Part shown: positions 22,774 to 30,027 of the stretch, piece after piece
How positions within the stretch are numbered: the first letter of the stretch is position 1
How the letters are laid out: each line of letters opens with the position of its first letter
NCBI GenBank assembly: GCA_029547605.1
Contig: JAKPPB010000050.1
Location: forward strand, 1-43,055
Length of the DNA: 43,055 bases
Direction: 5' to 3'
Source: Methanobacteriota archaeon
GTDB lineage: Archaea > Halobacteriota > Methanomicrobia > Methanomicrobiales > Methanospirillaceae
Translations under genes and position numbers: made by a program
Notes under the pieces: generated by a model
Databases searched by the model: none
What the model was told of the DNA's origin: nothing
Seen by the model: only the letters and a program-made list of their open reading frames with translations

Positions 22774-23459
22774 TCACGTCGCCGGATGGAGAGGCGATTA
22801 TACAATTCCTGGAAGTATCCAAGGTGTATCCCCTTCCCGGGGGGGACGTCGTAGCCCTGGATCACGTGACCCTCGAGATCATGCAGGGCGATTTCATTGC
22901 GATAATGGGACCCTCGGGCTCCGGCAAGTCCACGCTCCTGAACCTGATGGGGTGCCTTGACACCCCTACTTCCGGCACCCTCTTCATCAGGGGGAGGGAT
23001 GTCAGCACCATGAGCGACGACGAGCTGACGGGCCTCCGGAGGGACCACATCGGGTTCATATTCCAGCAGTTCAACCTCATCCCTCTCCTCACCGCGCTCG
23101 AGAACGTCCAGTACCCCCTTATCCTGAAGACCGGGGATCGCACCTGCACGGCCCGTTGCATTGACGTCCTTAAGTCAATGGACCTCGACGAGCAGTTCTA
23201 TTCCCACAAGCCGAGTGAGCTCTCCGGCGGACAGCAGCAGCGGGTGGCAATCGCACGGGCACTTGTAAACGACCCCGAGATACTCCTTGCGGATGAGCCG
23301 ACCGGAAACCTTGACACCCGGACGGGCTCTGCGATCATGGAGCTCCTGAAGGAATTGAACGAGAAGAGGGGCAAGACTATCATCATGGTGACCCATGATC
23401 CCAACATCGCCAATTTTGCCCACCGTACCATCCGGATTGTTGATGGAAAGATCACGTGA
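22770..23459 (+). CDS. ABC transporter ATP-binding protein, LolD/MacB type
   Basis: Nucleotide-binding subunit of a type VII (MacB/FtsX/LolCDE-like) ABC system. The 229-residue protein has Walker [10 protein letters not shown], the Q-loop FQQFNLIP, the signature [15 protein letters not shown], Walker [10 protein letters not shown] and the switch histidine in VTHDP. The ATG at 22770 overlaps the preceding stop (ATGA), and the stop overlaps the GTG start of the permease pseudogene. The ATPase of this class drives a mechanotransmission pump for envelope proteins, lipids or peptides rather than a channel-type importer. Confidence 0.94.
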
Positions 23460-24654
23460 TCTTTTTTGACCTGGCAAAAAGAAAACTGAAGATTCACTGG
23501 GTTCGTTCATTTCCTGCAATTCTTGGAATAATCATCGGTGTGCTGGCAATCGCCTCCATGGGGATCCTCGGCCACAGCATCAGCCTTCTTGTGGCAAACC
23601 TCATCAGCGACGTGGGGGATACTCTCATCGTCACCCCGCACGCCGCAGCCGGACAGGGATTTTTCGGAAACCCCCGGGTGGCAGTCATGGCCAGGCTTCC
23701 CTTGTCGGACGTGGAGGCGATCAGGAAAGTCGCAGGCTCGAGCAGGGGCATTCCCGTCCTCATGCGTGCAGAGGAGATGACATTTGGCAACGAATCCGGC
23801 TACGTGACCCTTCTTGGGCTCCCTGCAGGGGAGGTAACCGGCCTCCTGCGGCTAGAGAAAGGCATGTATTTCAGGGAAAATGCCCCCAGATGCCTCGCAG
23901 GATTGTAACTGGCTCGGGAATTTGGCATCAGTCCCGGGAGCCGGATCGGTATCGGGAACCAGAGCCAGAGGGTATCCGGCGTGCTCGAGGAGAGGGGGTA
24001 TGCAGCCGATATCAATGCGGATTACGCAATCATCGTCACGGAGCGCTGATTCTTCCAGACATATTGAGAAAGGAAGGAATACGACCAGGTGGTCATGAAA
24101 GTTGCCGACATATCCCAGATCGACCAGGTGAAGAGGGATATCGACCAGAGCCTCAACCGGAGAGAGAAGGTGGTGGATATTTTCGGTTCGCGTAAGCTGC
24201 TGAGACAGTATGACAGGATTTACGACCAGATCTTACTCTTCCTCCTGGGTATAGGGGCGATCTCTCTCATTGTCTCCTCGGTGAGCATCCTGAACGTGAT
24301 GATAATCTCTGTCACCGAGAGGACAAAGGAGATTGGAATTCTCAGGAGCATTGGCACAAGGAGGGGTCAGGTGATGCGTATGTTCCTTTACGAAGCGCTG
24401 GTGATTGGATCTCTTGGAAGCATCACAGGAAGCGTCATCTCCATCGCGGGCGGGTACTACATGAGCACTGTGGAGGCTGCAACGCTCTATTCATCATTCA
24501 GCGCCGTTCCTGATGTGACGGTTTTTGACCTGCGGGGAGGGGGTATATCATGCTCGGTATTGTCTTTGGTGTCCTGGTAAGCTGCATATCCTGCCTTTAC
24601 CCCGCGATAAGGGCGGTCCGCATAAAGCCGATCTAAGTACTGCGCCATGAATGA
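23456..24654 (+). pseudogene. MacB/FtsX-type ABC permease, decayed copy
   Basis: The frame begins at GTG 23456, overlapping the ATPase stop, and reads as the intact downstream permease for 150 codons. An in-frame TAA (23906-23908) then interrupts it where the intact copy has lysine. Reading on in the same frame restores homology (PGSRIGIGNQSQRVSGVL, DINADYAIIV), with TGA at 24047 replacing the tryptophan of the intact copy and TGA at 24065 soon after. The last cytoplasmic domain and three helices follow. A frameshift near the G-run 24534-24543 moves the tail to another frame (LGIVFGVLVSCISCLYPAIRAV), where a TAA at 24634 replaces the conserved glutamate before LRHE and the final TGA at 24652. 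At least four stops and one frameshift make a functional product unlikely. Confidence 0.9.
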
Positions 24655-24728: not shown

Positions 24729-25898
24729 GTGCAAAGAGGATTATTTTTTGATTTTGCAGTCAGAAACGTGCGGCTCCACTGGTTCCGTTCACTTCTTGCG
24801 GTGATCGGGATCATCATCGGGGTGGTTGCCATCGCATCCATGGGGATTCTCGGCAACAGCCTCGTGCTCGCAATCTCCGACAGCCTCTCGACGGTGGGAG
24901 ACAGCATCATCGTCACTCCACACGCTGGCACCCGCATGGGCCCTTCGATGGGTGGGAGCAGCGAACTCATCACGGAACGGAAGGTTGAGCAGATCAGGCG
25001 GGCGGTGGCGCCCGATATCACGATCCCGGTCTATTCCGGAACCGCCAGGATGAGGATCGGGACGGAGGATGCGGTGGGTGTGGTATATGCCTTAAAACCG
25101 GATGACATCCCCATCCTCCTCGAAGTCGAGGAGGGAACATTTCTCCGGGGGAGCTCGGGGGCCATGGCAGGGGCGAAGTTTGCCGCCGACAACAACCTGA
25201 AGGTCGGGTCTCGCATCACCATACGTGACAAGGGCTCGCTCCGGGTGGTAGGGATCCTCAAGGAACGGGGGATGGGCTTTGATATCAATCCCGATTATGG
25301 GATTGTCGTAGAAGACAGGTGGTACCAGCAGGCGTACGACCAGAAAGACTACGACATGGTCATCGTGAAGGTAAAGGATCTCACCCGGATCGAGCAGACA
25401 AAGGAGGCCATCGAGAAGCAGCTGAACCGCAGGGAGACCGAGGTGGACGTGATCGACACGAAGGCGATCCTCGAGACCATTCTCACGACATTCGGGCAGA
25501 TATCCACCTTTACAACTGCAATTGGCGGGATATCCCTCATCGTTGCAGGGGTGAGCATCCTCAACATCATGATGATGTCGGTCACCGAGCGGATCAAAGA
25601 GATCGGGGTGTTGCGGAGCATCGGCACGTTGCGAAAGGAGGTCCGGAGCATGTTCCTCTTCGAGGCATTGATCCTCGGGCTTATAGGCAGCATCATCGGG
25701 GGGGTGCTGAGCATTTTCGGAGGGTTTGCAGTGAGTCTTGTCATGCTTCAGACTACGGAGTACCTCTTCGTGCCGTCAAGCCTCGTTTATATCTTTTACG
25801 GTATGGCGTTCGGGGTGGGGACGAGCCTGCTCTCGGGGTTGTATCCAGCGTGGAAAGCCTCGAACCTGAACCCGATTGAGGCATTGCGGCACGAATAA
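24729..25898 (+). CDS. MacB/FtsX-type ABC transporter permease, intact copy
   Basis: Permease of 389 residues with the four-helix MacB/LolE topology: one helix at about 20-42, a large extracytoplasmic MacB_PCD domain, then three helices (about 265-290, 315-345, 352-375). The sequence SVTERIKEIGVLRSIGT is the coupling helix region that contacts the ATPase, and the tail NPIEALRHE is typical. GTG at 24729 is the only in-frame start near the expected N-terminus. It is the only working permease left beside this ATPase, so the exporter would be a homodimer unless another partner exists. It ends in a T-rich stretch (ACTTCTTTT) after the stop. Confidence 0.93.
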   Translation: MQRGLFFDFAVRNVRLHWFRSLLAVIGIIIGVVAIASMGILGNSLVLAISDSLSTVGDSIIVTPHAGTRMGPSMGGSSELITERKVEQIRRAVAPDITIPVYSGTARMRIGTEDAVGVVYALKPDDIPILLEVEEGTFLRGSSGAMAGAKFAADNNLKVGSRITIRDKGSLRVVGILKERGMGFDINPDYGIVVEDRWYQQAYDQKDYDMVIVKVKDLTRIEQTKEAIEKQLNRRETEVDVIDTKAILETILTTFGQISTFTTAIGGISLIVAGVSILNIMMMSVTERIKEIGVLRSIGTLRKEVRSMFLFEALILGLIGSIIGGVLSIFGGFAVSLVMLQTTEYLFVPSSLVYIFYGMAFGVGTSLLSGLYPAWKASNLNPIEALRHE

Positions 25899-25971
25899 TA
25901 CTTCTTTTAATAGCGGGTCGGCGACAAACACCCCCTTCCTATCCTGAAGGCATAAGAGAGTGCCTAGAGGA

Positions 25972-26241
25972 TCAGGCACACGACTGGGAGATTTTGGCAT
26001 CCTGGGTCAGAGTTTCGGAGATTGTGACGAGTGCCCCCTCGATCTCCTGCAGGGTGGCGCTGTTATCCAGTTGCCACACAGTGCACTCTTCAGCTTCCAC
26101 GATGACCAGTGCAACCGGAGTGCAGTTCCCTATATAACCCCCCGGCCACTTTATCGCGGTCCGCCGAAAGATCGCGAGTACGGTCCTGTCACCTGTCTTC
26201 AAAACAGGCCCAATCCGTAACTCCTGACTGTTATGCATCAT
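25972..26241 (-). CDS. Small GerW-like protein
   Basis: An 89-residue protein that looks like a short second member of the GerW (YtfJ) family: VLKTGDRTVLAIFRRTAIKWPGG corresponds to the GD-K-IPI strand region, and CTPVALVIVEAEECTVWQL to the conserved TPVALVLV strand and following loop. It lacks the long glycine-rich loop of the neighbouring GerW gene. The ATG overlaps the DUF2953 stop (ATGA at 26241-26238), so it is translated with it. The assignment rests on pattern similarity and position; a structural comparison would be needed to confirm it. Confidence 0.6.
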   Translation of the reverse strand: MMHNSQELRIGPVLKTGDRTVLAIFRRTAIKWPGGYIGNCTPVALVIVEAEECTVWQLDNSATLQEIEGALVTISETLTQDAKISQSCA

Positions 26242-26903
26242 GAAGTGGTCACGCTCGTCGTATGGCGTCTTTTATTCTGCTGGAAGAGGATGAAGAGGCG
26301 CGCAAGCCTCGCAACAAGGTTGAATGGACGGGAGATCCTGGCGTCCAGTTCGAGGCGGCCCTCAAGACGCTCTTTTGTGAAATCCGGCACCAACTCAATG
26401 TTGGTTCGCCCATTACTGAAGAGGAGGGGTTTCATGGCCCAGAAATACCCATAGAGCATCCCTGTCTCCGCAGGGCCAGAAAGGCCGACCACTGCCCTGC
26501 AGTCCAACCTCCTGAAAGAGAGAGACCTGATGGTGGCCCTGGCAATAGAGACCAGGTCAGGGAAATATTTGATAGCAGATTGAATGAATGACGGTATCAT
26601 GTGCGCCCGGCGGTCCTCTAAAGATTTATCCTCCATCACCTCTATGCCTGGAGTGGCTTTCCAGGGGAATGCGGGAAGAGGGAACAAGAGATCTCCAAGG
26701 AGGAGATGATAGCTCAGTTCTTCGCGGGAGAGCGTGCACCGGACACCCAGGCACAGCCAGCAGGCGGAGATGAACGCGGCTCTCCTGTCATGCGCACAGT
26801 CCACGTGGAGCCTGATCCGGATGGGGACCGCATATACGCAGAGTTCGAGGGATGCGAGCGCAAGGACTATGGCAGCGACGAAGATCACCGGGAAGAGATC
26901 CAT
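26238..26903 (-). CDS. DUF2953 membrane protein (YtfI-like)
   Basis: A 221-residue protein with one N-terminal membrane helix (about 4-27) and a soluble domain matching DUF2953. Signatures are FRRLDCRAVVGLSGPAETGMLYGYFWAMKPLL and IELVPDFTKERLEGRLELDARI near the C-terminus. In Bacillus and clostridia the homologue YtfI sits next to the GerW/YtfJ gene, the same pairing as here. It starts 15 bases after the GerW stop and overlaps the next gene by four bases, the middle of a three-gene operon. Function is unknown in any organism I can name. Confidence 0.82.
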   Translation of the reverse strand: MDLFPVIFVAAIVLALASLELCVYAVPIRIRLHVDCAHDRRAAFISACWLCLGVRCTLSREELSYHLLLGDLLFPLPAFPWKATPGIEVMEDKSLEDRRAHMIPSFIQSAIKYFPDLVSIARATIRSLSFRRLDCRAVVGLSGPAETGMLYGYFWAMKPLLFSNGRTNIELVPDFTKERLEGRLELDARISRPFNLVARLARLFILFQQNKRRHTTSVTTS

Positions 26904-26918
26904 GGGGCGGAACCCGCG

Positions 26919-27302
26919 TCACTCTTCCATTTTCGCGCCTTTTGAATCCGACATCGCCTTGATTGCTTTTATTACCTGGGGAGCAAGGGACTCGGAGAGG
27001 GCATTGATAATCTGGGCAACAGGGTTGTCCCGGTGAAGGGAGAGCACCTGGATTCCGTCAGGGCCTTTCACATCCTTGTGTACCAGCACAAGGGCCACGG
27101 GAGCAATCTTCCCCCCGCAACCGGCACCTTCACCCTCTCCCTCCTTTCCTTTCCCCCCTCCTGCTCCCATGCCGAATCCGAATTCCGCAATAGGGATAAC
27201 TGCCTTGTCACCGAGGTCGACTGCCTGGCCAACGACGTGGGCTGGCGAGAGAAGCCGGTCCAGTTCATCAGCGGTTATTTTGAGCATCTCTTCTCCTGTC
27301 AT
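26919..27302 (-). CDS. GerW (YtfJ) family protein
   Basis: A 127-residue protein of the GerW/YtfJ family, named after a spore germination factor of Bacillus but also common in methanogens, which do not sporulate. The N-terminal helix MLKITADELDRLL leads to VVGQAVDLGDKAVIPIAEFGFGMG, then a glycine-, lysine- and glutamate-rich loop (about residues 47-65), and the strand KIAPVALVLVHKDVKG with a helical C-terminus. ATG at 27287 with AGGAG just before it is an alternative start. It is the first gene of an operon with DUF2953 and a second GerW-like gene; a TATA-like ATATAGA near 27340-27350 may be the promoter. Confidence 0.88.
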   Translation of the reverse strand: MTGEEMLKITADELDRLLSPAHVVGQAVDLGDKAVIPIAEFGFGMGAGGGKGKEGEGEGAGCGGKIAPVALVLVHKDVKGPDGIQVLSLHRDNPVAQIINALSESLAPQVIKAIKAMSDSKGAKMEE

Positions 27303-27507
27303 GAGAGGTCCTCACCGGAGGAGTCATTCGGCGGAAGTCTATATCAATACTCCTGTAATGCAGGCGGGGTGAAGGGACTGGCGAATCTCCTTCCCGGAAG
27401 GAACGACTCGGTGCCATGCGGCGAGGGTGCGGGGGTCAGACCCGCACACTGGTTTCCTGCATGGGGTGGTGAGACGCACAATATCAATGGGCCTTTCGAT
27501 GGCTCTT

Positions 27508-29090: not shown

Positions 29091-29531
29091 TCAGCCCAGC
29101 TTGTCCAGGAACTTTTCGGCCATTGCCCTCACCGGGAGATAGGGGTCTTCCCTGAGGTGTGCGATGGCATTCCTGGCCCCTGTATTTTTCAGGTCCTCTG
29201 AATACCCGGAATCTGCCAGCCGTGAGAGTGCATGGACGGCGTGGAGGCGTATCTTCTCGTCCCTGTCTCTTGCAGCGGCGAGGAGGAGCCGTATCCCTCC
29301 ATGGGACACGAGCGCGGGTGCTGCAGTGTCGGTGGTGAAAAGGAGCACCACCAGGCGGTCGAGGAGCCTCCGCCTGGAAACCCGGTCGTTGCCGGTGATC
29401 GCCCGCTCAAGGCCGCAGACAATATCCCTCGCCTCCTCCCGTTCGGTCATCCTCTCCACATGGCATCCATGCGACAATAAGGCTTCCTTTATGTGGTCAT
29501 ACCTGCAGTGAGGATGTGGAGTATCCGACAT
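29091..29531 (-). CDS. HEAT/armadillo-repeat protein
   Basis: A 146-residue, largely helical protein. At least two HEAT-like repeats are visible in the C-terminal half: GIRLLLAAARDRDEKIRLHAVHALSRLAD and ARNAIAHLREDPYLPVRAMAEKFLDKL, with the typical D-x-V/I-R kink. The N-terminal half (REEARDIVCGLERAITGNDRVSRRRLLDRLVVLLF) is probably also repeat-like. Such proteins are scaffolds; no partner is suggested by the neighbours. ATG 29531 shares the CATG with the divergent phosphoesterase start; ATG 29543 would overlap that gene further. Confidence 0.75.
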   Translation of the reverse strand: MSDTPHPHCRYDHIKEALLSHGCHVERMTEREEARDIVCGLERAITGNDRVSRRRLLDRLVVLLFTTDTAAPALVSHGGIRLLLAAARDRDEKIRLHAVHALSRLADSGYSEDLKNTGARNAIAHLREDPYLPVRAMAEKFLDKLG

Positions 29532-30027
29532 GAAGATTGGCATTATTGGTGATACTCATGACCACCTTCCCAATATCACGCGCGCGGTGGAGGCGCTCAT
29601 TCGGCATGAGGTTGACGTGGTGCTCCACACTGGGGATTACATCGCGCCATTCGTCATTCCTATCCTTGGAAGTATCCCGGTACGGGTGGTCGGGGTGTTC
29701 GGAAACAACGACGGGGACCGGGAACTGCTCTCGACACGTTCCCGCGAGCAGCAGAACTTTGAGATTGCGGGGTATTTTGCCGACCTTCGGTTTGATGGCG
29801 AGCGGGTTGCGCTGATGCACGGCCATGACCGGGCGCTCCTTGCCGGGTGCGTCGGGAGCGGACTGTACGACATCGTCGTATCCGGCCACACTCACCAGCC
29901 CTCGGTATATCAGGAAGGAAGCATGCTTGGGATCAACCCCGGGGAGATATGCGGCTATCTTACCGGCAATCCCACATACGCCATATACGATACAGGGGAG
30001 AGGGTTGCCAGGATAATTCCCCTCTGA
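29530..30027 (+). CDS. YfcE/MJ0936-type metallophosphoesterase
   Basis: Small phosphodiesterase of 165 residues with a two-metal calcineurin-like site. All motifs are present: GIIGDTHDH at the N-terminus, HTGDYI, GNNDGD, LMHGHD and SGHTHQP. The family member MJ0936 hydrolyses model phosphodiesters; the cellular substrate is unknown. GGAG about ten bases upstream supports ATG 29530, which lies in the same CATG as the divergent HEAT gene start. It is followed by a decayed transporter gene. Confidence 0.92.
   Translation: MKIGIIGDTHDHLPNITRAVEALIRHEVDVVLHTGDYIAPFVIPILGSIPVRVVGVFGNNDGDRELLSTRSREQQNFEIAGYFADLRFDGERVALMHGHDRALLAGCVGSGLYDIVVSGHTHQPSVYQEGSMLGINPGEICGYLTGNPTYAIYDTGERVARIIPL

Follow-up and report, generated by a model that had tools for sequence, protein, structure and literature searches.

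The window (the whole stretch of 43,055 nucleotides of archaeal DNA that was analysed, from a member of the Methanomicrobiales) carries three minus-strand genes in close succession, which are listed with the neighbouring features in Table 1. The ORF coordinates bore out the spacing given in the preliminary description: the first gene is separated from the second by a gap of 15 bases (26904-26918), and the second and third genes overlap by 4 bases, ATGA (26238-26241). The protein encoded by the first gene is a member of the GerW/YtfJ family (PF09579; TIGR02874; COG3874), with the glycine-rich stretch followed by a PVAL-type strand that is found in the PF09579 family, and its parts are an N-terminal helix, a beta sheet with a long glycine-faced hairpin, and C-terminal helices. 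Against the sporulation equivalog TIGR02874 it scored 35.3 bits, below the cut-off of 116.3. The second gene is a member of DUF2953 (PF11167) with an N-terminal membrane segment, the family called YtfI in Bacillus; it differs in being followed by a third gene, whose protein matched no Pfam or NCBIfam family. A TATA-box-like element lies 38-45 bases upstream of the GerW start codon. Scans of the window with Rfam and for tRNAs found none, PADLOC found no defence family, and the repeats around the locus were short and chance-like.

Table 1. Features of the three-gene locus and its surroundings in the window.
Feature	Position	Strand	Evidence
GerW/YtfJ-like gene, 127 aa, first of three	26919..27302	-	PF09579 (Spore_YtfJ), 52.6 bits, above the cut-off of 25
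Glycine-rich segment of GerW, residues 41-75 approximately	27077..27181	-	alternating glycines; two long strands in the AF2 model
Second gene, DUF2953, 221 aa, with a single transmembrane segment at the N-terminus	26238..26903	-	PF11167, 39.4 bits, above the cut-off of 22
GerW paralogue with trimmed hairpin, 89 aa, third of three	25972..26241	-	profile match, dN/dS, AF2 model
TATA-box-like TTGATATA, candidate operon promoter	27340..27347	-	pattern scan with 1 mismatch; consensus only
Hairpin resembling a terminator, with a T-rich tail, where the third gene ends	25960..25979	-	consensus scan only
MacB/FtsX-type permease gene, convergent to the three genes	24729-25898	+	conserved neighbourhood in the order

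The preliminary description had likened the third gene to a trimmed GerW copy with no glycine-rich loop. When the two proteins of the window were aligned as single sequences, the match was weak (30% over 54 residues, E 0.009). Profiles of the third protein (A1; 70 aligned of 97 representatives) and of GerW from the order (A2; 42 aligned of 45) were compared using hhalign, and these matched with 96% probability, a score of 51.9 and an E-value of 4.4e-9 over 65 columns, the glycine stretch of GerW appearing in the alignment as an insertion. By comparison, the score did not exceed 15.0 when the columns of the GerW alignment were permuted (60 controls), and was 13.3 for the reversed alignment and 11.4 for DUF2953, so the 89-residue protein is weakly connected to GerW when taken alone and strongly connected as a family. 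After removal of the glycine block from GerW the score was still 49.4, so composition does not account for the match. When the A1 profile was searched against genomes of another family (f8), the single match in each of 17 of 17 matched genomes overlapped the GerW gene found by Pfam. PF09579 in turn matched 10 of the 70 third proteins scanned singly (E up to 0.1; best 3.9e-6), while 60 had no match at this threshold, and no other family was matched by more than one of the 70. The third protein and the GerW/YtfJ family have a common core, G-x-P-(x3)-G-x-R/K-(x)-I-x-P ... P-V-A-L; unlike the family, the third protein is without the glycine-rich hairpin and is mostly missed by the family model. 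On this profile evidence, the third family is a real relative of GerW, far beyond chance. The permutation controls, the genome-wide specificity of the profile for GerW in f8 and the PF09579 matches make it very improbable that the likeness to GerW arose by convergence in an otherwise unrelated small beta protein, even though the single pair aligns weakly, no solved fold connects the two proteins, and a joint tree of 71 columns (27 of the 70 third proteins of the order, six rows from family f22 and 21 of the 42 GerW rows) did not resolve their origins, with a support of 0 for the split.

The spacing between the I-P and P-V-A-L motifs separates the two families. In GerW of the order it spans 29-42 residues (median 34.5; 40% glycine; n = 42), as compared to 20-22 residues with 10% glycine in 70 of 70 third proteins, and the long glycine-rich segment is thus missing from the third protein, as had been described. 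Glycine pairs at lag 2 were in strong excess in the 42 GerW sequences of the order (z 14.3; 500 shuffles), with lags 1 and 3 depleted, and the lag-2 excess was also present in GerW of f8, f10, f22 and f30/f36 (z 2.4 to 9.0); rows lacking the segment (2 of 10 in f8, 1 of 42 in the order and all 3 of f21/f17) were left out of this test. In the AF2 model of GerW (pLDDT 81.4; pTM 0.52, which is modest), the glycine stretch is predicted to form two strands, E33-52 and E55-75. Taken together, the alternating glycines and the predicted strand pair suggest that what had been called a loop is best interpreted as a beta hairpin, one face of which consists of glycine. The AF2 model of the third protein (pLDDT 88.6; pTM 0.72) has strands at residues 3-16, 19-32, 35-49 and 52-57 and a helix at 64-81, and the order of strands in the two models, compared without superposition, matches. 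The third protein is therefore best read, at the level of predicted structure, as keeping the hairpin of the glycine region, shortened to a fixed length. Searches of both models against the PDB with Foldseek gave unusable hits (best E 0.14 and 0.40), the best VIA-align Z-scores against the PDB, 5.3 (rmsd 2.9 over 80 aligned positions) and 3.5 (rmsd 3.5 over 45), were within the chance range, and sequence searches against solved structures found nothing related to GerW, to DUF2953 or to the third family.

Within the order, PF09579 was found in 136 and PF11167 in 130 of 232 genomes. The survey of gene order covered 135 genomes, with 138 loci and 139 DUF2953 ORFs; since loci were picked for matches to GerW, DUF2953 or the third gene, the gene orders are conditional on the pair. 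GerW lies upstream of DUF2953 at all loci except two where the contig ends close to DUF2953 (L147 and L148). The third gene was recognised at 125 of the 138 loci in the first pass, with two more (L029 and L047) added by profile, and in 126 of the 135 DUF2953-bearing genomes it is the gene immediately behind DUF2953. The nine genomes without it are two in which the contig ends (G003 and G133) and seven of family f3. The triad first described in the window is thus conserved elsewhere, both in these 126 genomes and in four of eight GerW-positive genomes of f22. In all seven f3 genomes (L108, L116, L119, L126, L129, L130 and L132), DUF2953 is followed at a distance of 38-64 bases not by the third gene but by one for an unrelated, conserved protein of 206-226 aa with one membrane segment. 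Among 13 genomes of the window's own genus, the GerW and DUF2953 genes are both present in nine and both absent in four, from which the unit appears to have been lost as a whole.

To relatives within the genus, the third gene showed 80, 73 and 62% identity, with dN/dS of 0.12/0.34, 0.15/0.45 and 0.28/0.78 (NG86), respectively, a ratio of about 0.33-0.36, and third codon positions hold most of the differences. These values indicate that the third gene encodes a protein under purifying selection. The third protein is short and diverges quickly (mean column identity of 19% versus 46% for GerW), which would fit a decaying GerW duplicate without function, but this reading is already contradicted by the dN/dS ratio, by the presence of the gene in nearly all DUF2953-bearing genomes of the order, by the hairpin length of 20-22 residues in every third protein aligned and by the confidently predicted fold, and we regard the chance that it is correct as negligible.

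Across a sample of the phylum (392 genomes, of which 168 were GerW-positive and 224 were without GerW), the A1 profile matched in 74 genomes, comprising 52 of the order, 17 of f8 and five of f22; all 74 were among the GerW-positive genomes, and none of the 224 GerW-less genomes had a match. Fifty-two of the 57 GerW-positive genomes of the order in this sample carry the third gene, and the other five belong to f3. Outside the order, GerW and DUF2953 are adjacent in loci of f8, f10, f30 and f36, and the pair of these families and of part of f22 has the same order and strand as in the window; no third gene was found behind DUF2953 at these loci. The absence of the third gene from f3 and from most other methanogen families indicates that it is dispensable for the core function. 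The f22 triads are those of L203, L206, L209 and L211, a count that leaves out a lone third-like ORF in L201 (20 bits) and a third-like ORF behind DUF2953 in L207 (14 bits). In the GerW tree, in which the rows from beyond the order were a selection of 35 and the columns were few, the GerW of the f22 triads is distinct from the other f22 copies, and GerW of the order forms one group (SH-aLRT 92) that excludes the f22 triad copies; a recent transfer from the order is therefore not indicated. At L209 and L211 the triad lies beside genes whose sequence patterns look like those of a MoxR ATPase and a DUF58 protein. DUF2953 is missing beside GerW at three loci of f17 and f21, and likewise beside the extra GerW copies at L229 and L230, both from one f8 genome. 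Some f8 genomes (L173-L175, L229 and L230) have three GerW copies, with the extra ones in long frames of 232-300 aa. The GerW-DUF2953 pair might be expected near ScpA/ScpB genes; inspection by eye of the gene calls at 12 loci gave no support for such a placement. No GerW match was found on plasmids and no relative on viral contigs.

The distribution of the third gene also bears on the partner of its product. Counted from the end of the DUF2953 stop codon, the gene starts at -4 in 57 of 125 cases and at -17 in another 37 (together 94), and this frequent overlap, along with the faster divergence of the third protein than of GerW, is what might be expected if this protein acted on its own as a partner of DUF2953, in specificity or regulation, with its position reflecting a separate contact, and not as a GerW subunit. 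Since in the phylum sample the third gene never occurs without GerW, though DUF2953 is equally constant there, we consider such an arrangement a serious contender but an unlikely one, and retain the reading of the third protein as a subunit that would join GerW.

Of the 128 loci for which 600 bases or more of downstream sequence were available, 71 have a MacB/FtsX-type permease gene convergent to the triad (by genomes, 16 of 48 in f1, one of three in f2, 35 of 36 in f4 and 19 of 22 in f6), raising the question of whether the triad is an accessory of this downstream ABC transporter, for example in export or resistance. The permease is encoded on the opposite strand, however, it was convergent in none of 12 f5 and none of seven f3 genomes, and inspection of gene calls at 12 loci of other families revealed no evident transporter, so that a role as transporter accessory seems improbable. 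In the window, the first of two MacB-like permease genes, at 23456-24580 on the plus strand, is broken into ORFs in different frames (23456-23908 and 24089-24580); in L002 and L003, which are close relatives, two long permease matches occupy this place, and the broken gene is either a pseudogene or an assembly error. On the other side of the triad, a small HEAT-repeat-like protein is encoded at 29091-29543 on the minus strand (HEAT_2, E 0.0013, below the cut-off), and its gene adjoins a metallophosphatase gene on the other strand.

A hydrophobic N-terminal segment was present in 131 of the 139 DUF2953 ORFs of the order and in none of 137 GerW proteins, and 17 of 125 third proteins passed a crude hydrophobicity cut. 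The mean charge around the DUF2953 segment was -0.24 before and +0.47 after it, and 57% of the proteins followed the expected direction; with so weak a balance, the topology of DUF2953 is unsure. The only paper found in the open literature that names DUF2953 lists it, in its available text, in membrane proteomics of B. cereus (PMC8624511). The constant gene order, the overlap and the joint absence of the genes suggest that their products belong to one membrane assembly. We put forward, as a reading whose chances we judge to be about even, that the three genes are an operon for a single membrane-associated assembly in which GerW and its trimmed paralogue form a hetero-oligomer and DUF2953 is the tether. 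The genes would then be co-transcribed and their products would form a complex. GerW would be a soluble cytoplasmic beta protein, and the all-glycine face of its hairpin would be suited to the stacking of subunits. DUF2953, as a single-pass membrane protein, would tether GerW at the cytoplasmic face of the membrane. The third protein, keeping the sheet core, would most likely join the GerW hetero-oligomer, either as a second type of subunit or as a non-stacking cap. As for expression, the one archaeal YtfJ datum found comes from a report on a 'Ca. Methanoperedens' culture, the available text of which states that the YtfJ protein was significantly lower under salt (PMC11337218); its detection counts for expression of the family in an archaeon. 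One may guess that the job of the triad is envelope or osmotic homeostasis in growing cells.

GerW and DUF2953 genes are adjacent in Bacillus, and of 14 control genomes only B. subtilis and M. acetivorans had both PF09579 and PF11167. Methanogenic archaea form no spores, and when the genome of the window was searched for Spo0A_C, SpoVAC/EB and SASP, it gave 0 matches to each, with the B. subtilis control positive every time. The statement in the preliminary description that GerW acts in germination is contradicted by work on two Bacillus species: GerW was named for germination with L-alanine, but Cruz-Mora et al. (2015), as far as the available text of their report goes, found no germination role for it in B. 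subtilis and B. megaterium, traced the earlier claim to strain background and called the function undetermined (PMC4366231). YtfJ has also been named in Ruminococcus flavefaciens, in the part of the source that was available. Fibrobacter succinogenes is a bacterium that is not known to sporulate. YtfJ is nevertheless named in it, in the accessible text of one report (PMC5442110), so the protein is not confined to endospore formers even within the bacteria. No description of the archaeal operon or of the third protein was found in the open literature, a search in which subscription journals were mostly outside; this agrees with the earlier remark that a trimmed GerW duplicate was undescribed, and points to a new subfamily and a new form of operon within a known but unexplained family.

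It is plausible that sporulation took over an older function of GerW and DUF2953. A fuller scenario, which we offer tentatively and regard as rather doubtful in its entirety, is that the two proteins are no sporulation device but an old membrane-tethered assembly of growing cells which occurs across methanogens, that a dedicated hairpin-less subunit capping or tuning the glycine-faced stack was gained in the Methanomicrobiales and in some members of a second methanogen family, and that endospore formers recruited the two-part form and express it in the forespore. Overall, these results suggest that the three proteins have a general membrane job that is not tied to spores. GerW/YtfJ is named as a spore protein, yet its knock-out is without a germination phenotype; the archaeal operon presents it in a spore-free setting with a fixed membrane partner and a previously unrecognised family of third subunits, and opens a way to the role of the GerW family and to the question of whether sporulation borrowed GerW.
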